Source of the DNA: an uncultured SAR116 cluster alpha proteobacterium | GTDB lineage: Bacteria; Pseudomonadota; Alphaproteobacteria; Puniceispirillales; Marisalimonadaceae | DNA length: 64,000 nucleotides | Assembly (NCBI GenBank): GCA_902623995.1 | Contig: CACNWE010000010.1 | Location: 1-64,000, forward strand | Direction of reading: 5' to 3' | Position numbers and translations under genes: made by a program | In this document: piece by piece, positions 203 to 51,958 of the stretch | How positions within the stretch are numbered: the stretch's first letter is position 1 | How the letters are laid out: each line of letters begins with the position of its first letter | Notes under the pieces: model-generated | What the model was told of the DNA's origin: nothing | The model's database searches: none | The model's input: only the letters and a program-made list of their open reading frames with translations

Positions 203-3200
203 ATGAATAGTATAAATACAAATATGAGTGCTCTTGTCGCTCAGGAAAATATCCAAAAACAAAATCGTGAAATGAATGACGCAATGGCTCGTTTATCTTC
301 TGGTTTAAGAATAAATTCAGCTGCAGATGATGCTGCTGGAACTGCAATTGCATCAAAAATGGAAGCTCAAGTCAGAAGTTTAGATATGGCTGTTAGAAAT
401 TCTTACGATGCTATTTCAATGACACAAACAGCCGAGGGTGCTCTTGGTGAAATGGAAAACGTTTTACAAAGAATTCGTGAAATATCTGTACAAGCTGGGA
501 ATAGTACTCTTTCAGCAGCTGATAGATCTAGCATCCAAAAGGAAGTTGATGCCTTAATAAGTGAGTTAGATAGTATAGCTTCTAAAACAAATTTTAATGG
601 AGTTAAACTTCTAGATGGTTCTCGTGATAGCGTAACATTCCAAACTGGGATTGATGCTTCTGATGCATTAAATGTTGCTCTGGAAAAATCAGATACTACT
701 GCATTAGGTTTAAAAGGTGGTTCATTTGTTAACACTTTTACAAGTGGAAGAGTAAGTGCGACAGACTACAGTGCTGCCGGAGCATCTTTGGCGACTGGTG
801 CTATTAAAATCAATGGTGAAAACATGATTGCTGGCTCAACTGCTTTTAACACGAATTTAAGTGCCTCTAATGCTGATGCCGCTAGAATTTTAGCAGCTCA
901 AATCAACACAAACACTTCTGTTCATGGTGCAGTTGCTACAGCTTTTAATGAATTAACATCTACTCAAAAGGCCACATTCTCTCAATCAGCTGCTTTTTCT
1001 ATTAATGGTGACGAGGTTGCTATTGCTAGTGATGCTGCTGACTTAGTTAGACTAATTAACAGAGATGTATCAGAACTTACAGCTGTTCTTAATGCTAATG
1101 GAACTATTACTTTATCAAATGATAATGGTGACGATATTGTATTTTCAGGTGCAGGTATCCAAGGTGCTGTTGATGTAGGTTTAATTGCAACAACTGCTGA
1201 TACTGATTACAGAGGTTACATCAAACTTGAAAACAAAGATGGATCTAAAGTTAAAATTGAAGCTGCAAACATACAAAATGGTTACAGTACTGATGTTGGT
1301 ACTATAGCAGATCTACAAGCACTTGGTTTTAACGAAGTTAATGACGATAACTCTATTTCAACTGGTGCAGTTACTACAAACGCAATAACAACTGCTCATG
1401 ATATTAAAGTCAATGACGTAGCAATAGGTGTATCAGCTACAGGTTCAGCGGCTTCAAAAGCTATAGCAATTAATGCAAAATCTAGTGAACACGGTGTTAC
1501 TGCATCAGCCAATAACCGAGTTGAAATGACACTTGACTTTGATAACGTTCCAACTGCAGCAACTAAGACATTTGACTTTAGTGCTGCTACCGGAACAGGT
1601 GTACAGGTTTTCAAAGATGGTACAAACACTTATGAAGAGGCTTTTGCTACTGATGCTTCAACTACAGTTGCTAATTTAGTTGCAACTATTAACGGTGGTT
1701 CAAATTCATATACAGCAAGTGCAAGTGGAACTAATCTTGTTATTACTGCTGGTTCAAGTGGAAACAACCAACCTGATTTTGACTCTGGCTTAACATTTCA
1801 AGCAAGAGTTGGAAATACTGCACAAAAACAATTAACGACTTTGGATGACACAACAACTGTCGCTATTTACTCTGCTGTTGAGGTTAGTGATGGTACAACC
1901 ACTAAAACAGTTATTCAAGAAAGTGCTGATAGTGCTAATGAATTTGATCAATTAAAGACTAAAATTGCTGCTTTAACTGACTTTTCTTCTGATGTTAAGA
2001 TTACAGACAATTCTACTTTTGCTACTGACGGTGGAATTATGTTTACTGCTGCTGAAGCTGGTCGTGCAATAAGAGGTACTTACACTCTAACTCAAATGAC
2101 TGCTGCTGCTGTTACAGTTAGTACTACTTTGTCTGACTACGAAGTTCAGACAGTAACTGGTAGTTCTTCTCAAAAGGATGTGTATACATTAAAGTTACAC
2201 ACAGGTAGTCTTGATGGAACAAATGAAATAGAAAATGCTGCCATAATTGGTACTAATGGAGGTGTTGTTCAGTTAACATTTACAAGTGCTGAGGGTACTG
2301 GTACTGTTTTTCAAGAATCAGAAGCTGGTACTGGATCATCTGCCAAAGTAACTACTTTAATACAGGGCTTAGTTAATAAGATAAACGCAAGATCTGATTT
2401 TGCTTTTACAGCTGGTGTCAATGCAGATGGTGATATTCAATTAACTGCCAATGCAAATGGTGCTGGAATACTAACAACAGATACTGTTGCCCTTGCTATC
2501 TATAAGTGGGAAACAGACGATGCTACTACAAGCGCGTCTACAGCAAACGTTACTGGTGCTACAAAAAGTGCGACTGATACAACTTCATCAACTTCATCCA
2601 CATTAACAGTCAATGGAAATGCCGTTACTATTAATGCTTCACATGAAATGACAGATGTTGTAAGTTCCATTAACAATGCTAACATTGGTGACGTTAGAGC
2701 GACTGTTGAAGAAACAACTGGTAACTTAGTGTTAACAAGTGTTTCTGGAGCTGATATCGTAATTAAAGATAGTCAAGCTCAATCAATTGTAACTTCAATG
2801 GAGGATGTTACAAGCACTGCTCAAACATTAACAGTAGCTGCATTAACTGCTGGTGTTACAAACAGGGGTCAAATTCACTTAGCCAACCAAGATGGTTCTC
2901 TTATAAAGCTGTCTGGCGACAACATAAGTGAAATTGGTGCAAAAGCTCAAAGTTCAACAACTGATGTTAAATCTGCAAATTTAAGTGTGTCTTCTATCGC
3001 AGAAGCTAATGCAGCTCTTGAAAGCATAGATGCCGCTATTGCAAAAGTAACTTCTTTTAGGTCTTCTTTTGGAGCAGTTGAAAATAGACTTGATGCTTCA
3101 ATTAACAACCTAACAACTCTAAAGCTTAACACTGAAGCTGCTAAATCTAGAATAGAAGATGCTGATTTTGCCGCTGAGACATCAAAAATGACAAAAAGTC

Positions 3201-3283
3201 AGATTTTATCTCAAGCTGCAACTTCAATGTTAGCTCAAGCTAACGCTTCTAAGCAAAATTTACTAGCTCTTCTTCAAGGATAA
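203..3283 (+). CDS. fliC: Flagellin 1 (giant, 1026 aa)
   Basis: Structural subunit of the flagellar filament, exported by the flagellar type III system. Residues 1 to about 170 form the conserved D0/D1 helices, with the hallmark stretch LSSGLRINSAADDAAG near residue 31. The last 90 residues form the C-terminal D1/D0, including RIEDADFAAETSKMTKSQIL. Between them lie about 760 residues of surface domain rich in Thr, Ser, Ala and Asp, including Flagellin_IN-like units (for example LTVNGNAVTINASHEM). Ordinary flagellins have roughly 280-500 residues, so this is a giant form. Residues 170-448 and about 782-900 align with flagellin 3. A block of about 330 residues between them (roughly 1547-2546) is absent from flagellin 3. 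GGAG sits 9 bases before the ATG. A sigma-28-like promoter lies upstream and a strong hairpin terminator follows. Confidence 0.95.
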   Translation: MNSINTNMSALVAQENIQKQNREMNDAMARLSSGLRINSAADDAAGTAIASKMEAQVRSLDMAVRNSYDAISMTQTAEGALGEMENVLQRIREISVQAGNSTLSAADRSSIQKEVDALISELDSIASKTNFNGVKLLDGSRDSVTFQTGIDASDALNVALEKSDTTALGLKGGSFVNTFTSGRVSATDYSAAGASLATGAIKINGENMIAGSTAFNTNLSASNADAARILAAQINTNTSVHGAVATAFNELTSTQKATFSQSAAFSINGDEVAIASDAADLVRLINRDVSELTAVLNANGTITLSNDNGDDIVFSGAGIQGAVDVGLIATTADTDYRGYIKLENKDGSKVKIEAANIQNGYSTDVGTIADLQALGFNEVNDDNSISTGAVTTNAITTAHDIKVNDVAIGVSATGSAASKAIAINAKSSEHGVTASANNRVEMTLDFDNVPTAATKTFDFSAATGTGVQVFKDGTNTYEEAFATDASTTVANLVATINGGSNSYTASASGTNLVITAGSSGNNQPDFDSGLTFQARVGNTAQKQLTTLDDTTTVAIYSAVEVSDGTTTKTVIQESADSANEFDQLKTKIAALTDFSSDVKITDNSTFATDGGIMFTAAEAGRAIRGTYTLTQMTAAAVTVSTTLSDYEVQTVTGSSSQKDVYTLKLHTGSLDGTNEIENAAIIGTNGGVVQLTFTSAEGTGTVFQESEAGTGSSAKVTTLIQGLVNKINARSDFAFTAGVNADGDIQLTANANGAGILTTDTVALAIYKWETDDATTSASTANVTGATKSATDTTSSTSSTLTVNGNAVTINASHEMTDVVSSINNANIGDVRATVEETTGNLVLTSVSGADIVIKDSQAQSIVTSMEDVTSTAQTLTVAALTAGVTNRGQIHLANQDGSLIKLSGDNISEIGAKAQSSTTDVKSANLSVSSIAEANAALESIDAAIAKVTSFRSSFGAVENRLDASINNLTTLKLNTEAAKSRIEDADFAAETSKMTKSQILSQAATSMLAQANASKQNLLALLQG

Positions 3284-3343: not shown

Positions 3344-6235
3344 TTAATTTTGTAATAATTGAAGTACGTTTTGTTGAGCTTTTCCAGCTTGTGCAATCAT
3401 TGCCATAGCTGATTGCTGAAGAATTTGAGCTTTAGTTAATCTCGCAGACTCTTTTGCAAAATCAGCATCTTGAATTCTTCCTCTTGAGGCATTTGTGTTT
3501 AATGCAACATTTGATAAATTATCAATTGCTTTTTCCATTCTACTCATTAAAGCGCCAAGTTTTGCTCTTTCTTTATGTATTCTATCTAATGATCTATCTA
3601 ATACCCTTAATGCATCTACAGATGCTTGTCTTGTTTTAACATTTACACCTGACAATTTATCTAGTGAAGCAGCTCCAGGTGATGTTTCAAATAATCCTTT
3701 TCCATCTTCACCAACAACAGTAAAACTATTACTTGAAGACATCTCAAGTTGACCAGTTACTATGACAGAGTCAGCGCCTTTAACTCCAATTTTTATTGCA
3801 CCTGTAGTTGTATCAGATGGTGTAATTGTATGAATTGTTCTAAAGATACGTCTGCCAGTTACAGTTTTATTGGCTTCAGGTCCTGTTATTACTTCTGTAA
3901 GGGAAGTACCATCCATTCCAGTTCCTACAACTGTAAATGTCTTAGTTGACTCATCACTAGCTGAACTTGTAATTGTTACCAATATAGATTCATTAGCTAT
4001 TGTGTTTTTAACGCCAACTCTAATTTTTGCATCACTATCTGTTGCTGAAGGTTTCACACTAGTAACTGTTCCATAAATTTTTGCTGAGGTTAATGTTTTT
4101 GGATATGTACTACCTGTGTGGCCATTTATTGTTTCAGATTGTTCATTTCCATATACATCAGTTCCGGTTATAACAAAATTTGCACTTGATGCGGCTGTTG
4201 ATGTAATTGTTATAAAAGAATTAAGAGTAGCAGTTGCATCTACCATAGCTAGACTTTGAGTACCAGTAAAACCCGATGAAATAGCTTGTTCTCCGCATAC
4301 CTTATTATCGTCAGTAGCAAGTGAAACAGGTCCATTTAATGTAAATCTTGAGGACATATCTTTGATTGATTTACCATTTGCATGACTTGCAGCAGTTGAA
4401 GTAACTGTATCAAGTGTTACTCCTCTGGTTACACCTGTAAAAGATGTTGCTGTTACACCAGTATAAGTCACAAATTCAGAACCAATTAATAATGTACCAG
4501 CTTCAGGAAAACCAGTTGTACTTGCGACATTAAAGGTTGTAGCCGTTGGGTCTGTTGCTTGAGAAATGCCATCATTTCTATCATGTTTTGCAGCTGTTGT
4601 ACCGCTTGTTGCTCTTGTTACCCCAGTAAAAGTTGTTCCTGTTTTACCTGTGTATGTAAAAAGCTCGTCACCAATTTTAATAGCACCAACAGAATCGAAT
4701 GCTGAAGTGCTTTCTACAGTTATTGTTCCTGAACCAGAAATGGTGTCCCCACTTCCAATAACTAAAAATACAGAAGCGCCATGTGCATGATTTGCAGCAG
4801 TACTACTTTCTTGAGCCCTAGTTACACCTGTAAGATTATTTCCACTTACACCTGTATATGTGAAATATTCAGAACCAATTTTAATTGTTCCTCCTGCGGT
4901 AGGAAAACCTGTGGTAGACGCCAGCGGTATTTGAGTAACAGTGCTAGTACCCAATGTTCCACCAGAGTTGTTGTAAGTTGATTCTGCACCTCTAAGAGTG
5001 GTTGATCCTGTAACAGTTAAAGAGGTTTCAGTAGGAGTTGAGCCAATTACTGTATTGGTTGTTGTTATTGTTCCTGAAAATAAACCATCATCGTCTGTTG
5101 CAGTAACATGAGTATCACCTAAACTTACGGCATTCCCAGCTGCTGCTTCGTCATTATCAAGACTTGTTACTAGTAAAGTTCTTCGTGCTCCCGTTGCATC
5201 CGTATCACCATCAAAGTTAACGTCACCAAGTTTAATATCATAACCTTCATTTTGAACCATAATAATTGAAGATTTATCAGTAGACAAAGTAGCTGTAACA
5301 CCAGTTGTAGTCGTGTAGTTATTGATGGAATCTCTTAATTCTGACAATACAGAGCTGCCCTTATTGTCATTTAAGGTGATATTTGCTGCAATAGTTGTTG
5401 CTACAGTATTTTTACCTTGTATGCTAAATGACACACTAGTTTGACCATTATATGCGTCATCAAGGGATTTTGCCTCAAGTTTTAATTGCGTTGATGCAAT
5501 GGCTGTAACACCAGTTGCGTCAAAAACTGCATTAACTGAAGTTGCAATGTCTCTTACGGTAGAACCAGCTGCAGCTGTAACAGAGGAACTTCCTAAAATA
5601 CCATGTATTGTAAAAGATTCTGATTGAACAAGATTAGTCTCAGATGTTGTGTCAACTGCATATGCATTTAGAGCTAAATTGTCGTTTTTTCCGTCTGTAT
5701 CAGTAGTATCTGATTTAGCTTTATAAGCACCTAGACTGTCTAATCTCATAGATGAAATTGAAAGCTGAGCAAATTCTCGCTCATGTGTACCAATCTGAAA
5801 ACGTCTATCTGCGAATGATCCATCTAAAACTGCTATTTCATTAAAGGTAGTATCTCTTGTTACACGATCTAATTCTGCCAACATTTGAACAACTTCTGCA
5901 TCAAGATAAGAACGTTCTTCAGCATTCATTACATCTGATGCTGATTGTATTGCTAATTCACGAATTCGTTGAATAATTGCTGAAGATTCATCTAGTGCAC
6001 CCTCAGTGACTTGTGCCATAGAGATCACATCAGCTGCATTTCTTACTGATTGTTCTAAACCTTTAATTTGAGCAGTCATTCTATCAGCGATAGCTGCACC
6101 GGCAGCATCATCTCCAGCATGATTTATACGCTTACCAGATGACAGACGTTCCATTGCAGTCGTCATTTCTCGCTCAGTAGCAGTCATTTTATTAAGTGCA
6201 AACTGTGCTGCAGTATTAGAATTTACTGTTGGCAT
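3344..6235 (-). CDS. fliC: Flagellin 2 (963 aa) with virion-like repeat insert
   Basis: Filament subunit. Residues 1-170 are D0/D1 (LSSGKRINHAGDDAAGAAIA near residue 31). The last 90 residues are the C-terminal D1/D0 (RIQDADFAKESARLTKAQIL), closer to gammaproteobacterial flagellins than flagellins 1 and 3 are. The middle is unlike the other two. Residues about 431-625 hold three diverged units around IKIGSEYFTYTGV..G.NLTGVTRA. Residues about 669-820 hold two units around ITSTAxxSxxFxITGTDxxGNxxSExI. Both families resemble repeats I know from phage tail and other virion proteins. A cysteine at residue 647 is unusual, because flagellins seldom contain Cys. The start is set at 6235: GGAG is 8 bases upstream, and the longer frame (to 6268) would begin inside the sigma-54 promoter, before the expected transcript start. 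Confidence 0.93.
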   Translation of the reverse strand: MPTVNSNTAAQFALNKMTATEREMTTAMERLSSGKRINHAGDDAAGAAIADRMTAQIKGLEQSVRNAADVISMAQVTEGALDESSAIIQRIRELAIQSASDVMNAEERSYLDAEVVQMLAELDRVTRDTTFNEIAVLDGSFADRRFQIGTHEREFAQLSISSMRLDSLGAYKAKSDTTDTDGKNDNLALNAYAVDTTSETNLVQSESFTIHGILGSSSVTAAAGSTVRDIATSVNAVFDATGVTAIASTQLKLEAKSLDDAYNGQTSVSFSIQGKNTVATTIAANITLNDNKGSSVLSELRDSINNYTTTTGVTATLSTDKSSIIMVQNEGYDIKLGDVNFDGDTDATGARRTLLVTSLDNDEAAAGNAVSLGDTHVTATDDDGLFSGTITTTNTVIGSTPTETSLTVTGSTTLRGAESTYNNSGGTLGTSTVTQIPLASTTGFPTAGGTIKIGSEYFTYTGVSGNNLTGVTRAQESSTAANHAHGASVFLVIGSGDTISGSGTITVESTSAFDSVGAIKIGDELFTYTGKTGTTFTGVTRATSGTTAAKHDRNDGISQATDPTATTFNVASTTGFPEAGTLLIGSEFVTYTGVTATSFTGVTRGVTLDTVTSTAASHANGKSIKDMSSRFTLNGPVSLATDDNKVCGEQAISSGFTGTQSLAMVDATATLNSFITITSTAASSANFVITGTDVYGNEQSETINGHTGSTYPKTLTSAKIYGTVTSVKPSATDSDAKIRVGVKNTIANESILVTITSSASDESTKTFTVVGTGMDGTSLTEVITGPEANKTVTGRRIFRTIHTITPSDTTTGAIKIGVKGADSVIVTGQLEMSSSNSFTVVGEDGKGLFETSPGAASLDKLSGVNVKTRQASVDALRVLDRSLDRIHKERAKLGALMSRMEKAIDNLSNVALNTNASRGRIQDADFAKESARLTKAQILQQSAMAMIAQAGKAQQNVLQLLQN
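3776..4231 (-). repeat. Two type-B virion-like repeats in flagellin 2
   Basis: Two protein repeats of about 75 residues (flagellin 2 residues 669-744 and 748-820) share the order: ITSTA or ITSSA, a strand ending in ITGTD or VVGTG, a DxxG turn, then S or T, E and TING or VITG, a Lys/Thr/Ala strand, xxSVKPS or xxTITPS, and a final IRVGVK or IKIGVK. I recognise this pattern from phage structural proteins (an Ig-like fold is likely). That link is from memory and was not searched. Confidence 0.6.
4361..4945 (-). repeat. Three type-A virion-like repeats in flagellin 2
   Basis: Three diverged protein repeats of 55-60 residues (residues 431-489, 502-557 and 566-625). Each runs: a Thr/Val strand, STTGFP or STSAFD, a Gly turn, IKIG-E, FTYTG, six residues, FTGVTR, then a Thr/Ala/His-rich tail (AANHAHGA, AAKHDRND, AASHANGK). 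Similar units are familiar from phage tail fibre-like and large secreted proteins. The DNA copies have diverged, so this is an old duplication. Confidence 0.65.
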
Positions 6236-6267
6236 ACTAATCTCCAAATTATTTTCGTAGGGAAACA

Positions 6268-6285
6268 TTGCAATTGTTATGCCAA
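6268..6285 (-). promoter_or_regulatory. Sigma-54 promoter of flagellin 2
   Basis: Read on the minus strand, TTGGCATAACAATTGCAA has the -24 GG at 6283-6282 and the -12 GC at 6271-6270, exactly ten bases apart (consensus TGGCAC-N5-TTGCW). Transcription should start near 6258, 23 bases before the chosen ATG at 6235. This excludes the in-frame ATG at 6268. No FleQ-box-like site was seen nearby. Confidence 0.85.
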
Positions 6286-7582: not shown

Positions 7583-9574
7583 ATGCTTAATATCACTAAT
7601 ATAACTGCGCCTCAAATTATTCAAAGCAACATTTCAAATCAGATAAAACAAATTACTGAAAGTACTGAAAGATTATCTTCTGGAAAAAGAATTAATAATG
7701 CATCTGATAGTCCAGGTTCTATTGGTCCAATTTCTAGGCTTAATTCTCAAATTTTGTCAATTGGTCAAGCTATATCAAACGGAGCTGAAGGAAAATTATT
7801 AGCACAAACAGCTGATAATGGACTAAATGAAATTAGTAATTTATTAGCAAGAATTAGAGAGTTGACCGTTCAAGGAAGTAATTCAACTTTGACAACTGCT
7901 GATAGAAATGTACTTCAAGTAGAGATTGACAGTTACATTACAGAGATTGACTCAATTACTAATTTGGTAAAATTTAACACAATTAAACTCTTGGATGGGT
8001 CAACAGATAAAGTTAGTTTTTTAGTAGGTGAAACAAAAGACGATAATATTATAATTGATTTAATTAAATCTAACAGCACAGCTTTAGGATTATCAGGATC
8101 TTCAGGAGTTAAAGAATTTACAAGTGGACGAGTAACAAGCTTTAATTACAGTTCAAACTTAGCTACAAGCGACATTAAAATAAATGGTCAAAACGCACTA
8201 GCTAGTACTTTGACGTCCAATTTAACTGCAGGAAACAATACAGCAGCTGCATTAGTTACTGCAATTAATGCTAATTCAAATACACATGGAGCAACTGCGT
8301 CAGGTTTTAATAAATTAACTTCAGCAGCAAAAAGCTCTTTATCTATGAGTAATACATTTACTATAAATAGTGATGTAATTGCAGTTCAAACAAGTTTAGA
8401 AAACTTAACTGCTGAAATCAATCAAGAGGCTTCTGGGATAATTGCAACATTAAATTCAGATAACACAATAACTTTATCAAATGATACAGGTAATGACATT
8501 GTTATAGGAGGAAATGCACCGACGGATGCTGGTTTTACAGCTGGCACATATTTAGGATATATAAAACTTGCTAATATTGATGGTACATTTGTCAAAATTG
8601 AAGCAATGACTAAAGAGAATGGATACGCTTCCAATAGCGGAAATATTGATGATTTAGCTAGATTTGGATTTAACGAAGTCGACTCAAGCACTGTAATCAG
8701 GTCAGACTTAGTTTCAACAAATGCTCTTACAGCGTCTCATGATATTAAAATTAATGATGTAGAAATTGGCGCATCTGACAGTGCTTCTGCAGCAGCAAAA
8801 GCAATAGCTATAAACGCTGTATCTTCATCTACAAATATTACTGCTTCAGGTAGTAATATAGTTACACTTGATTTAAATTTTTCAGAGGCTTCATCTGCAG
8901 CTTCAAATATTAGTATAAATGGAAATGCTATTAATTTTTCTAGTGTATCAAATGCCTCAGAAACTATAACAGCTATTAATAATGCATCAATTGGCGATAT
9001 TATAGCTTCTGCAAATTCAAGTGGTGAAGTGCAATTGAGTAGTGCTAGTGGAGCTGATATTGTCTTAGCACATGCAGGGACACCAGGAGTTTTTTTTGAT
9101 GGACACACAGATGCAACAGGTGCAACTGTTGCAGTAGGTAGCTCAGTCACTTTTAAAGGTCAAATTTTGTTAACTCATAGTGAAGGAGATGTTGTGAAAA
9201 TATCTGGAGATGATGTCGGAGAATTAGGTTTTCAAGCTCAGGCATCAAGTAGTGCATCTACACCAGGCTCTATAATTTCAGTATCTTCAACATCTAACTC
9301 TTCATCTGCACTTACTAAAATTGACACAGCAATAGACACAATTGCTAATACCAGAGCTAAATTTGGAGTTAGTGAAAATAACATTGATCATAGGTTAAAT
9401 TATTTGTTAAACACCAAGACAAATTCAACGTCAAGACTATCTAAGTTAGAAGATGCTGATTTTGCGCTTGAAACAGCAAAACTTACAAAAGCACAGATAA
9501 TGTCAAACGTAGCATCGTCATTATTGGCTCAAGCTAATGCAAATAGTAACATTTTTTTAAAATTAATTAATTAG
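7583..9574 (+). CDS. fliC: Flagellin 3 (663 aa), paralogue of flagellin 1
   Basis: Filament subunit. N-terminal D0/D1 covers residues 1-170, but the usual DDAAG(L/T)AI segment after LSSGKRIN is replaced by NNASDSPGSIGPISRL, so the helix turn that is nearly invariant in flagellins is altered. The C-terminus (LEDADFALETAKLTKAQIM ... LAQANANSN) is intact. The surface domain from TALGL to about residue 430 runs parallel to flagellin 1 (FTSGRV, DIKINGQNALA, the pair ITLSNDTGNDIV and ITLSNDNGDDIV, YIKLANIDGT, GFNEV). It then skips the roughly 330-residue block present there. GGAGGA lies 7-8 bases before the ATG. The stop shares bases with the stop of the convergent fleQ. Confidence 0.92.
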   Translation: MLNITNITAPQIIQSNISNQIKQITESTERLSSGKRINNASDSPGSIGPISRLNSQILSIGQAISNGAEGKLLAQTADNGLNEISNLLARIRELTVQGSNSTLTTADRNVLQVEIDSYITEIDSITNLVKFNTIKLLDGSTDKVSFLVGETKDDNIIIDLIKSNSTALGLSGSSGVKEFTSGRVTSFNYSSNLATSDIKINGQNALASTLTSNLTAGNNTAAALVTAINANSNTHGATASGFNKLTSAAKSSLSMSNTFTINSDVIAVQTSLENLTAEINQEASGIIATLNSDNTITLSNDTGNDIVIGGNAPTDAGFTAGTYLGYIKLANIDGTFVKIEAMTKENGYASNSGNIDDLARFGFNEVDSSTVIRSDLVSTNALTASHDIKINDVEIGASDSASAAAKAIAINAVSSSTNITASGSNIVTLDLNFSEASSAASNISINGNAINFSSVSNASETITAINNASIGDIIASANSSGEVQLSSASGADIVLAHAGTPGVFFDGHTDATGATVAVGSSVTFKGQILLTHSEGDVVKISGDDVGELGFQAQASSSASTPGSIISVSSTSNSSSALTKIDTAIDTIANTRAKFGVSENNIDHRLNYLLNTKTNSTSRLSKLEDADFALETAKLTKAQIMSNVASSLLAQANANSNIFLKLIN

Positions 9575-10716
9575 TCAATAGGTGCTTTTGGAGTATTAAT
9601 AGAGAATTTCTTCATTTTTTCAATTAAGGTAGTTCTTCGAAGTTTTAGTTTATCTGCTGCAAGTGCTACCTTATTATTAGTTTTTTCGAGCGCCTCTTCT
9701 ATTAAAACAATTTCAACATCTTGTAGGTGTCTTCTTAAATCTATTTCATCATAAAAAGAAAACCAGTTTTTATAATTTTTTGGGTGTGGTAAGTAATCCT
9801 CTAGATTGTTGGTATGTTCGTTTTCTTCAATGTTAGTTATTCCACTTAAATTAGATGTCATTTCCCATAAAGCTTCTTGTTCTTCAGCAAATGTTGGTAT
9901 TTTTAATCTTAGTAAATTTTCGTAAACATTAGTGCTAGAAATTTCTTTTCCCGGAAAAATAATACAAGCTCTTTCAATTACATTTTTTAATTCGCGAACA
10001 TTTCCAGGCCAATTATGTTTACAAAGTGCAGTAATTGCGTCTGGTGTAAAAATTGGTTTTTGAGATTTATCTACTTTGAGATTATTTAAAAGTGTTTTTT
10101 GTAAGCTGGGTATATCAGTTCTTCTTTCTGCCAAAGAGGGTACATTTATAGGAAGGACATTAATTCTAAAGAATAAATCTGCTCTGAATTCTCCACTCTC
10201 AACTTTTTTTTCAAGGTCTCTATGCGTAGCACAAATCAATCTTAAATCTATTTTAATGTCTTGTGCACCCCCAACTCTCTGTATTGATCTATTTTCAATA
10301 GCTCTTAAAAGTTTAGCTTGAAGAGGTAAGGGCATGTCCCCAATTTCGTCAAGAAAAAGAGATCCACCACTAGATTGCTCAAATCTTCCTTTTCTTTGTT
10401 TGTCTGCACCTGTAAATGAACCTTTTTCATGTCCAAAAAGTTCTGATTCTAACAACTCGGACGGTATTGCAGCACAATTTACTGTAATGAAAGGTCCTTT
10501 TTTACCCGAACACTTGTGAATAGCTTGAGCAACAATATCTTTACCAGTGCCAGTTTCACCTAAAATTAATGCAGTACTATCTGTTTGAGAAACCATAGCT
10601 ATTAAATTTTTCATTGACTTTGTCTCAGGACTTTCGCCATCAATCATATTATTAAGTATGTCTAATGAAGATCTATTTTGCTCTGGTTTGCTTGTTAATT
10701 TATCGACAACATTCAT
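9571..10716 (-). CDS. fleQ: FleQ-type sigma-54 activator without receiver domain
   Basis: Bacterial enhancer-binding protein that remodels sigma-54 RNA polymerase. Only about 25 residues precede the AAA+ domain, so no REC or FleQ N-terminal domain is present. Walker A is GETGTGKD (53-60). The sigma-54 contact loop reads GSFTGA (99-104) instead of GAFTGA. Walker B is SLFLDEIGD (119-127). The C-terminal helix-turn-helix covers about 335-375, with a FleQ-like RRTTLIEKMKKF. Rhodobacter sphaeroides Fla1 is controlled by a FleQ that works with FleT, and a FleT-like gene lies next door in divergent orientation. A FleQ-box-like palindrome sits 42 bases upstream of this start. It is the likely master activator of the sigma-54 promoters reported here. 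An NtrC-type activator for other targets is less likely. Confidence 0.85.
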   Translation of the reverse strand: MNVVDKLTSKPEQNRSSLDILNNMIDGESPETKSMKNLIAMVSQTDSTALILGETGTGKDIVAQAIHKCSGKKGPFITVNCAAIPSELLESELFGHEKGSFTGADKQRKGRFEQSSGGSLFLDEIGDMPLPLQAKLLRAIENRSIQRVGGAQDIKIDLRLICATHRDLEKKVESGEFRADLFFRINVLPINVPSLAERRTDIPSLQKTLLNNLKVDKSQKPIFTPDAITALCKHNWPGNVRELKNVIERACIIFPGKEISSTNVYENLLRLKIPTFAEEQEALWEMTSNLSGITNIEENEHTNNLEDYLPHPKNYKNWFSFYDEIDLRRHLQDVEIVLIEEALEKTNNKVALAADKLKLRRTTLIEKMKKFSINTPKAPID

Positions 10717-10906: not shown

Positions 10907-12103
10907 ATGAGCCAAGTTATTGTAGTTAATAATAGTTTAAAGATAGCTAATAATTTATGTGATATTTTAGAACAAAGAGATATTACTGTTATAAAAGCTG
11001 GAGTGGGTAGTACTAAACCAGATTTTTTTGGAATTGATCTTGTTGGTTATCAAGCAGATACAATTGTTTGCTCAGATATTTTTGAGAAAGAAATTGGTGG
11101 CTCATCAAAATTGGTTTCAATTGCAAGACAAGCTAAATTAACAAAGATCATTGTTATTTCAGACAATAGTAATTGCAAAGGTATAGAAATAAAAGATGAA
11201 CTAGGCGGAGCTGTAAAAAGAATTAATGTTGCAGATTATACAGATCAATATTCTTTAGAGCTAATTTTTAATACTTGTTGTCCAAATATATCTTTTTCAG
11301 CAGGTGATTCAAATACATATGAATTATTATCATTAGCTAGAAGAGTGGCAAGTACAGATGTAACTGTTTTCATAAACGGTCCAACAGGCTCAGGTAAAGA
11401 GGTTTTAGCAAATTATCTTCATGAAAATTCTATTAGAAAAGATGAACCATTTGTTGCTGTTAATTGTGCAGCAATTCCAGAAAACATGTTAGAGGCTATT
11501 CTTTTTGGTCATGAAAAGGGTGCTTTCACTGGTGCATCAAATGCAAACAAAGGTATCTTCCGAGCTGCAGATAAAGGAACATTACTTTTAGATGAAATTT
11601 CAGAAATGCCTCTATCTTTACAGGCAAAATTACTTAGAGTATTACAAGAAAGAAAAGTTACACCTGTTGGTGGGCAAAGGGATATAGATGTAAATGTAAG
11701 AGTTTTGGCAACATCTAATAGAGATATGGCCTATGAGGTAAATCAGTCAAGATTTAGAGAGGACTTATATTATAGGCTCAATGTTTTTCCACTACAAACG
11801 CGAAATTTATCATCAAGAAAAGATGATATATTACCAATTGCAATAAAAATTTTAGATAAACATAATCAAGAAGGTAAATCATCGCCTTATTTAACAAATG
11901 AAGCAAGAGAATTATTATTAAGTCATAATTGGCCAGGTAATGTAAGAGAATTGGAAAATACTCTTCAAAGAGCTCTTGTATTAAGTAATGAAAATATCAT
12001 TGACGAAAAATCAATAATGATAGACAGATCATTGTCAAAAATTAATGAAAATTCATCAGTTGACTCGTTTGCAGATCAACTGGCATTTGCAAAAGTAACA
12101 TAA
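10907..12103 (+). CDS. fleT: FleT-like sigma-54 activator lacking the DNA-binding domain
   Basis: The first 125 residues form a receiver-like alpha/beta domain (MSQVIVVNNS ...) in which I cannot identify the acidic pocket and phosphoacceptor Asp of true response regulators. The AAA+ domain follows, with Walker A GPTGSGKE (158-165), sigma-54 loop GAFTGA (205-210), Walker B GTLLLDEISEMP and the R-finger region RFREDLYYRLNVF. The protein ends about 40 residues after the AAA+ lid with no Fis-type helix-turn-helix. FleT of Rhodobacter sphaeroides likewise lacks the DNA-binding domain, acts together with FleQ, and lies directly upstream of fliE, as here. It is first in an operon with fliEFGHIJ and has its own sigma-54 promoter. 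Mixed FleQ-FleT assemblies are an inference. Confidence 0.85.
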   Translation: MSQVIVVNNSLKIANNLCDILEQRDITVIKAGVGSTKPDFFGIDLVGYQADTIVCSDIFEKEIGGSSKLVSIARQAKLTKIIVISDNSNCKGIEIKDELGGAVKRINVADYTDQYSLELIFNTCCPNISFSAGDSNTYELLSLARRVASTDVTVFINGPTGSGKEVLANYLHENSIRKDEPFVAVNCAAIPENMLEAILFGHEKGAFTGASNANKGIFRAADKGTLLLDEISEMPLSLQAKLLRVLQERKVTPVGGQRDIDVNVRVLATSNRDMAYEVNQSRFREDLYYRLNVFPLQTRNLSSRKDDILPIAIKILDKHNQEGKSSPYLTNEARELLLSHNWPGNVRELENTLQRALVLSNENIIDEKSIMIDRSLSKINENSSVDSFADQLAFAKVT

Positions 12104-50485: not shown

Positions 50486-50617
50486 ATCAATGTAGTTTCT
50501 GAATTGTGAGATGTTAGCAAGTTAGATTTCTCTATAATATTTATAACAAACAATATATATATATTGATATATCGATCTTGTAAGCACATATCAATTAAAA
50601 AAAGTGAGGAAAATATT

Positions 50618-51958
50618 TTGTATTTTGAACTTTTTAAAATAATTTTTTTAATGATTTTAAAAATCTGTTTTACAAGTTCAACATCATTGGCTTATATAGA
50701 TCAAGATTGTATAAATTCCTCGTTTTATGTCAAAAATATAAACGTTGATTTAACAAAAGAATCAATTAATGAAGCAAGATCTCAAGCGGAACAAAAATCT
50801 AAACTTTTAGGCTTTAAAAGACTTACTGATAGATTAATTATAGAAAATAAGAAATTAAATTTTAACAAAATAGATGTTTCTTATTTAGTTGATTATTTAA
50901 AAATAAATAAAGAAGCTAACAGTGATAAGAGATATTTAGCAAATTTTGATATTTGTTTTAACCGAAATCTAGTTATTAACTTTTTTAGAAAAAATAGACT
51001 ACAATATGCAGAAACATATAGAGAACCAGTGGCAGTTTTACCTGTTTTTAAAGGCCCAAGAGGTTTTGTTATATGGGATGAAAAAGATAATTGGTATTTA
51101 AATTGGAAAGATAATCTAAAAATTATCGATGGATTAGTTAAATTAAAACTAGCTAAAGGTAACTTTAGTTTAAATAGAGTTTTAACAGCTAATGTACTTT
51201 TGAAATCAAATGAAGATCATATTAATAAATTAATAATAAATGAAAAAACTAATGCTCTTATTATAGTTGTTGCGGAGCCAATTTTAATGAGAGATGGAAA
51301 AACTTATTTATCCACGTATGGAAAATTATATAACAAAAGTGGACAATTACAATCAACGATTTATAGGAATTCAATACCTCTAGAGAGAACTTCCTCATTT
51401 TACAATGTTGATAAAACCTTATTAGCAAAAGAAGTGTCCAATATCATAAAATCAATCGAAACAAATTGGAAAAGAAATAATTTAATTGATACTAAAGTTT
51501 ATAATGAAGTTGATCTCATAATTCCAATAACAAATATCAACACCACTACATTAAAAAATAAATTATTGTTTAATGATAAATCAATTAATGTAGATTCAAC
51601 ATTTGGGTTTAAAGATAAAGGTTTTTTGAAAATACAAAATGAAATAATTTTTTATAATAAAAAAACTACAAATACTTTTGAGAATATCAAAAGGAGTTCA
51701 TTTAATTCTTCAAAAAAATTAAAGTATGAGAAGAATGTCAATGTAATTCAAAAGGATTTAAGTGTTTGGCCAAATATTTTAATAATATTAGAAAAATTAC
51801 CCTTTGTAATAGAAGTGAAAATTATTTCTATTACAAACTCACAAGGAAGAATTATAGTAAAGTTCATGGGAAATAAAAAAACATTTTTTCAAGCTATTTC
51901 AGAAAAAAAACTTAATTTTAAAGACTTAAATTCCCAACAATATGTACTTACATACTAA
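50618..51958 (+). CDS. DUF2066 family exported protein
   Basis: A protein of 446 residues with an N-terminal signal segment (YFELFKIIFLMILKICFTSSTSLA) and the DUF2066 features EARSQAEQKSKLLGFKRLTDRLI and AETYREPVAVLPVFKG. Function is unknown. The gene regularly sits between purM and perM in alphaproteobacteria. The start is TTG 50618, with GTGAGGA seven bases upstream. The frame opens at a TTG at 50564, but that one has no ribosome binding site and would spoil the signal peptide. Confidence 0.78.
   Translation: MYFELFKIIFLMILKICFTSSTSLAYIDQDCINSSFYVKNINVDLTKESINEARSQAEQKSKLLGFKRLTDRLIIENKKLNFNKIDVSYLVDYLKINKEANSDKRYLANFDICFNRNLVINFFRKNRLQYAETYREPVAVLPVFKGPRGFVIWDEKDNWYLNWKDNLKIIDGLVKLKLAKGNFSLNRVLTANVLLKSNEDHINKLIINEKTNALIIVVAEPILMRDGKTYLSTYGKLYNKSGQLQSTIYRNSIPLERTSSFYNVDKTLLAKEVSNIIKSIETNWKRNNLIDTKVYNEVDLIIPITNINTTTLKNKLLFNDKSINVDSTFGFKDKGFLKIQNEIIFYNKKTTNTFENIKRSSFNSSKKLKYEKNVNVIQKDLSVWPNILIILEKLPFVIEVKIISITNSQGRIIVKFMGNKKTFFQAISEKKLNFKDLNSQQYVLTY

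Follow-up and report, generated by a model that had tools for sequence, protein, structure and literature searches.

Two virion-type repeat modules in a SAR116 flagellin and their probable shuffling among flagellar axial proteins

The window analysed here, a stretch of 64,000 nucleotides of SAR116 DNA, carries a flagellin cluster in which fliC2, on the minus strand, lies between fliC1 and fliC3, both on the plus strand. FliC2 holds an insert made of two repeat families, called A and B below. The likely start of fliC2 is M12 (MPTVNSNTAA.., start codon at window position 6235); residues are counted from M1 of the full open reading frame unless stated otherwise. The features are as follows.

203..3283, plus strand: fliC1, neighbouring flagellin gene, 1026 aa, without A or B (ORF, Pfam, profile search)
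3344..6268, minus strand: fliC2, flagellin gene, ORF of 974 aa
3353..3604, minus strand: Flagellin_C (D0/D1) region of fliC2 (Pfam)
3665..3772, minus strand: partial third B unit of fliC2, residues 833-868 (29 bits)
3776..3997, minus strand: B unit 2 of fliC2, residues 758-831 (profile match)
4001..4231, minus strand: B unit 1 of fliC2, residues 680-756 (profile match)
4295..4297, minus strand: codon of Cys658 of fliC2, Cys647 when counted from M12 (ORF translation)
4350..5032, minus strand: 683-bp cassette with three A units, 87.3% DNA identity to flgK of the same genome (blastn)
4364..4555, minus strand: A unit 3 of fliC2, residues 572-635 (profile match)
4565..4744, minus strand: A unit 2 of fliC2, residues 509-568 (profile match)
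4769..4951, minus strand: A unit 1 of fliC2, residues 440-500 (profile match)
5813..6226, minus strand: Flagellin_N (D0/D1) region of fliC2 (Pfam)
7583..9574, plus strand: fliC3, neighbouring flagellin gene, 663 aa, without A or B (ORF, Pfam, profile search)
51563..51745, plus strand: single diverged A unit in a 464-aa exported-protein-like gene at 50564-51958 (profile search)

Elsewhere in the window, two divergent genes that read like sigma-54 activators (9571-10716, minus strand, and 10907-12103, plus strand) separate the flagellin cluster from fliE/fliF-like genes. The A unit of the 464-aa gene lies near the C-terminus of its product, and the flanking genes are purM-like and permease-like, names that were likewise given by reading the sequences. 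Many genomes of the SAR116 family have ORFs of 447-482 aa with units akin to this diverged A.

Both ends of FliC2 are those of a bacterial flagellin (FliC), as a preliminary description of this DNA had it: Flagellin_N covers residues 15-152 (E-value 1.1e-37, 129.6 bits against a Pfam cut-off of 26.6) and Flagellin_C residues 889-972 (1.1e-24, 87 bits against 23). Family A has the motif IKIGSE..YTG..FTGVTR and three units of about 60 aa, and family B has the motif ITST..F.I.GTD..G and two and a half units of about 75 aa. Three A and two B units had been described before at residues 431-625 and 669-820, which become 442-636 and 680-831 from M1 and agree nearly exactly with the units found here; the partial third B is an addition. 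The cysteine reported at residue 647 is also present, as Cys658 of the full ORF, and it is the sole cysteine of FliC2; in the same genome FliC1, FliC3 and FlgL lack cysteine altogether, against one in FlgE and three in FlgK. Outside A and B, the only Pfam outer-domain match in FliC2 is a Flagellin_IN motif at residues 218-264. The A and B stretches match no Pfam family and no PDB sequence, and the reading of the insert as ordinary flagellin D2/D3 was rejected, there being no flagellin outer-domain match in Pfam and no PDB sequence or PDB fold match (E <= 1e-3) for A or B. The best PDB sequence match to A, influenza haemagglutinin (E ~0.8), aligns over about 20 residues and was dismissed as chance.

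To assess the likeness of the insert to virion proteins we used profiles built from viral units with no bacterial sequence included; these units had first been found with the bacterial motif, so that the viral-only profiles are independent as training data and not as search seed. The viral-only A profile matched FlgE at 7e-61, FliC2 at 5e-52 and FlgK at 6e-51, and the viral-only B profile matched FlgK at 2e-105 and FliC2 at 1e-26. Individual FliC2 units scored 64-73 bits (A) and 43-62 bits (B), and 500 shuffled inserts reached a maximum of 4.8 bits. Among PHROGs families, the insert matched the baseplate wedge families phrog_2885 (1.2e-11) and phrog_708 (6.6e-8) and the virion structural family phrog_4406 (2e-9), and tblastn of the insert against named phages returned the 'tail tube B' of Pelagibacter phage Skadi and cyanophage P-TIM40. 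Searches of named phages by tblastn with the B region, an artificial A consensus and a viral B ORF gave no matches; named phages sample the module poorly. Scans of IMG/VR were seeded by DNA patterns of the A and B motifs, and of 200 loci examined from the matches listed (120 for the A pattern, 80 of 120 for the B pattern), at least 121 carry A and at least 81 carry B by profile. In 50 viral ORFs the same A positions (G, E, Y-T-G, F-T-G, T-R and H) are invariant or almost invariant. Judged by sequence, A of FliC2 is a virion module and B probably one as well. The earlier term 'phage-tail-like' stands for A and is too narrow for B, and the proposed search of virus databases did return virion families.

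Among the viral A ORFs taken from the matches listed, 49 of 50 match phrog_4406 (virion structural) and 42 of 50 match phrog_2885 (baseplate wedge), a naming that may run through the A unit itself, with tail fibre, tail protein and amidase families also matched. In phages, A is located in baseplate, tail and sheath proteins. The viral B ORFs are mostly 200-230 aa long and have few PHROGs family names of their own; since they adjoin major head, portal or terminase genes, with phrog_371 (major head) in 14 of 54 neighbours, the B carriers look head-associated.

The model of the insert is all-beta with flexible linkers (pLDDT ~85-90 for A and ~88-96 for B; pTM of the insert 0.38). An Ig-like fold had been anticipated, yet no solved structure in PDB was matched by Foldseek at E <= 1e-3, pairs with FN3 appearing only at E > 1; nor was a standard flagellin fold found among PDB folds at that threshold. 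Against viral models (BFVD), Foldseek gave 33 matches at the cut-off of E <= 1e-3; phage structural proteins rank first, and a baseplate wedge initiator and the tail sheath of a cyanophage are among the 33. Their TM-scores are low, and this viral signal is thus partly driven by sequence.

The modules also occur in other axial proteins of the same 2.08-Mb genome. There are three A and seven B units in FlgK (2374 aa), four A units in the hook protein FlgE (1554 aa), and two B units in the cap protein FliD (872 aa, with Pfam FliD_N and FliD_C; L389:2542-5157, minus strand, contig C8). Profile search found no A or B unit in FlgL, FliC1 or FliC3 of this genome. The flgK gene lies at L012:6607-13731 (minus strand, contig C8), and each of the three cysteines of its product falls inside a B unit. 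FliC1 paralogues of other SAR116 genomes (L016-L018, L022-L026, L029, L034) carry two or three B units each.

The cassette shared by fliC2 and flgK was followed through relatives, which are SAR116 single-cell genomes. In about 20 orthologous SAR116 flagellins the A cassette is absent with clean edges and the B units are kept. The FlgK and FliC2 cassettes of genome G028 share an identical run of 157 nt; between genomes such runs reach at most 65 nt. On a FliC2 backbone tree built with the insert columns omitted, monophyly of the five A-bearing fliC2 genes is rejected (AU p 0.0002), and G039, which has A in FlgK and none in FliC2, is sister to G026 + G028. The cassette and backbone trees conflict, in that the G026 cassette groups with that of G012 and the G026 backbone with that of G028. 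Given this conflict, the non-monophyly and the 157-nt run in G028, the cassette seems to be mobile, both from gene to gene and from lineage to lineage. A midpoint-rooted cassette tree nests the FlgK cassettes inside those of FliC2, but G039 has A in FlgK only, so that either gene may have been the source.

By profile search, A is present in 45 of 58 genomes of the SAR116 family, mostly in FlgE-length ORFs, and B in 47 of 58. In genome samples drawn from Proteobacteria and searched with profiles trained on SAR116 units, A was found in none of 287 other Alphaproteobacteria (E <= 1e-8), and one of these genomes had B, in an ORF of 237 aa whose sequence resembles the viral head-associated proteins and which is likely a prophage gene. 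At the order level, a single A match among 59 genomes of other families came from G369, a fragmented and partly contaminated assembly. A sample of 397 other genomes (Pseudomonadota) contained five with A; judged by reading the sequences, four of the carriers resemble prophage tail proteins, a tail sheath among them, and the fifth is pilin-like. Among the bacteria sampled, flagellar use of the modules is restricted to the one family, and outside it A and B appear to be almost exclusive to phage particles. The pilin-like carrier (G421:C23:12944-13108, L403) is a 553-aa protein with a pilin-like N-terminus and one A unit (E 3.5e-7), and a type IV pilus use of the A module is possible there. In the SAR116 relative G021, a B unit (G021:C4:44456-44665) lies within an open frame of 4228 aa, perhaps a giant adhesin.

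The A modules of phages (phrog_2885, phrog_708, phrog_4406, Skadi-4 tail tube B and the insert of HMO-2011-type gp44) are the same unit of ~60 aa with the same invariant residues, and they too are mobile and present or absent, as in flagella. Unlike them, the A units of FliC2 and FlgK form tandem triplets in exported axial proteins. Phage HMO-2011 infects a SAR116 bacterium. In relatives of this phage, a single A unit is cleanly inserted (~69 aa) into the tail protein gp44, and the gp44 of HMO-2011 lacks it. HMO-2011 is not supported as the direct donor, since the 32 kb examined of its genome contained neither module. At least 43 A-bearing viral loci have HMO-2011-like structural genes, and phages of this type are a plausible source pool of A; since they also infect Roseobacter and SAR11 (PMC9038755), they are a plausible pool and not a proven donor.

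Flagellar axial proteins have a common helical core and differ on the outside. As D0/D1 does the assembly, modules can be swapped without loss of the filament, and it has been reported that outer domains can be gained, lost or exchanged in this way (PMC7018530, PMC8931119) and that the same holds for inserted domains (PMC5595980). We consider it likely that one SAR116 family took up the virion modules A and B into its flagella, where shuffling among axial proteins made an outer coat of them. Two small all-beta modules, A of tail/baseplate type and B of head-associated type, would have been captured, then multiplied and moved by recombination among the FlgE, FlgK, FliD and flagellin genes. They may be stacked as outer domains of D2/D3 type on the hook, the junction and the filament; with the same beta modules borne by hook, junction, cap and filament alike, the result would be a single uninterrupted outer coat. 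A tree of the units (59 columns) is compatible with a single flagellar origin (AU p 0.51) and leaves the root unfixed; hence we infer the direction from virus to bacterium from the distribution of the modules.

Several other explanations need to be weighed against capture from virions. Convergence, by which fast-evolving Gly/Thr-rich beta repeats would only resemble phage tail repeats, draws on the extreme diversity of flagellin hypervariable regions (PMC7018530) and on the low Foldseek TM-scores, but it has to contend with viral-only profile matches of 5e-52 and 1e-26 against shuffles of at most 4.8 bits, with identical positions near-invariant in 50 viral A ORFs and with the absence of A from the other alphaproteobacterial genomes sampled. 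We regard it as very improbable overall and as refuted for A. An assembly or binning artefact joining a phage contig to a flagellin deserves mention because the genome is assembled in 48 contigs; the independently assembled SAR116 genomes L014, L015, G026 and G028 have the same junctions in intact ORFs, FlgE carries A family-wide, and the artefact can be considered refuted, with a negligible probability. Phages could instead have acquired the modules from the flagellar genes of SAR116, for instance to mimic their hosts. The near-universal presence of A in the hook protein of the family, the inclusion of a SAR116 phage among HMO-2011-type phages (PMC9038755) and the unfixed root of the unit tree would be in keeping with this direction. 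However, the viral carriers comprise pelagiphages, cyanophages, many IMG/VR contigs and prophage tail genes of other Pseudomonadota, and many different virion proteins carry the modules against cellular flagellar carriers in one family, which makes the reverse transfer improbable. It is also conceivable that phages and SAR116 both drew on a cellular pool of surface proteins such as adhesins or pilins, as the pilin-like G421 protein, the exported-like 464-aa window protein with A and the 4228-aa G021 ORF with B might suggest. Carriers that belong to neither virions nor flagella are few, though, making up one of the five outside-family A matches in the 397 Pseudomonadota genomes, and such a third source seems quite unlikely.

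A last alternative concerns purpose and is compatible with capture from virions: the coat may serve phage evasion, with virion modules that shield the flagellum or hold virions harmlessly as a decoy. Few roles of D2/D3 are known, and the attachment of phages is among them (PMC7018530). In addition, cassettes are exchanged between genomes and come and go among close relatives, as would be expected under diversifying selection. On the other hand, A shows no such variation in FlgE but is fixed throughout the family, pointing to a structural role in that protein, and we know of no flagellum-binding phage of SAR116. A decoy coat is therefore unlikely in our view. Somewhat less so, but still doubtful, is the wider proposal that hook, junction, filament and cap have been re-coated with virion modules that were domesticated and still recombine between phage and flagellar genes, acting as decoy, receptor or shield. 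For the captured modules as such, the least certain part of the explanation is what the coat does; most likely it would be a recombinable, chemically varied layer whose side contacts make the filament stiffer or thicker and which affects the hold that particles, surfaces or phages can get on it. The fixed A units of FlgE suggest a mechanical or side-contact role in the hook, and the variability of the cassette in FliC2 and FlgK points to selection acting on surface identity. Particle adhesion and altered phage contact are possible consequences.

Flagellins of the flagellinolysin type (PMC5595980) resemble FliC2 in having a compact insert between intact D0/D1 that is present or absent in close relatives, and, as for their inserts, that of FliC2 is expected on the filament surface. 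They differ in that flagellinolysin is an enzyme and occurs in flagellin only, whereas the modules here are non-enzymatic, of virion type and found in flagellin, FlgK, FlgE and FliD. Giant flagellins with DE regions (PMC6248924) share with FliC2 the occurrence in marine bacteria, the large size and the tandem surface repeats; DE regions are reported in flagellins only, with no phage relatives described and no sharing with hook or junction proteins, the text of that paper mentions neither phage nor FlgK, and the comparison with FliC2 is one of descriptions. In filaments with dimerised or interlocked D2/D3 (PMC8931119), outer domains coat the filament and tune motility, as may be the case here; no virion homology was reported for them, and side contacts of A and B are only inferred. 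Inserted domains in flagellins are thus already known, and the sharing of virion modules among axial proteins would be the new part; we found no report in the open-access literature of virion modules spread over flagellar axial proteins. Flagellins with DUF3383 may be a virion-like precedent, since we take this family to be phage-associated. The survey of domains inserted in flagellins lists DUF3383 in 24 flagellins (PMC5595980).

It is of interest to see where new surface domains come from. The outer domains of flagellins are among the most variable protein regions, and the source of new ones is rarely traceable. In the present case virion proteins can be seen as the source pool and a narrow lineage, a single SAR116 family, as the recipient. 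Intermediate states survive as well: orthologues that lack the cassette, cassettes common to flgK and fliC2, and a conversion-like tract. Abundant, mostly uncultured ocean bacteria and their phages are in this way connected with the evolution of the flagellar surface, and the result invites tests of whether such coats change phage contact, adhesion or motility.
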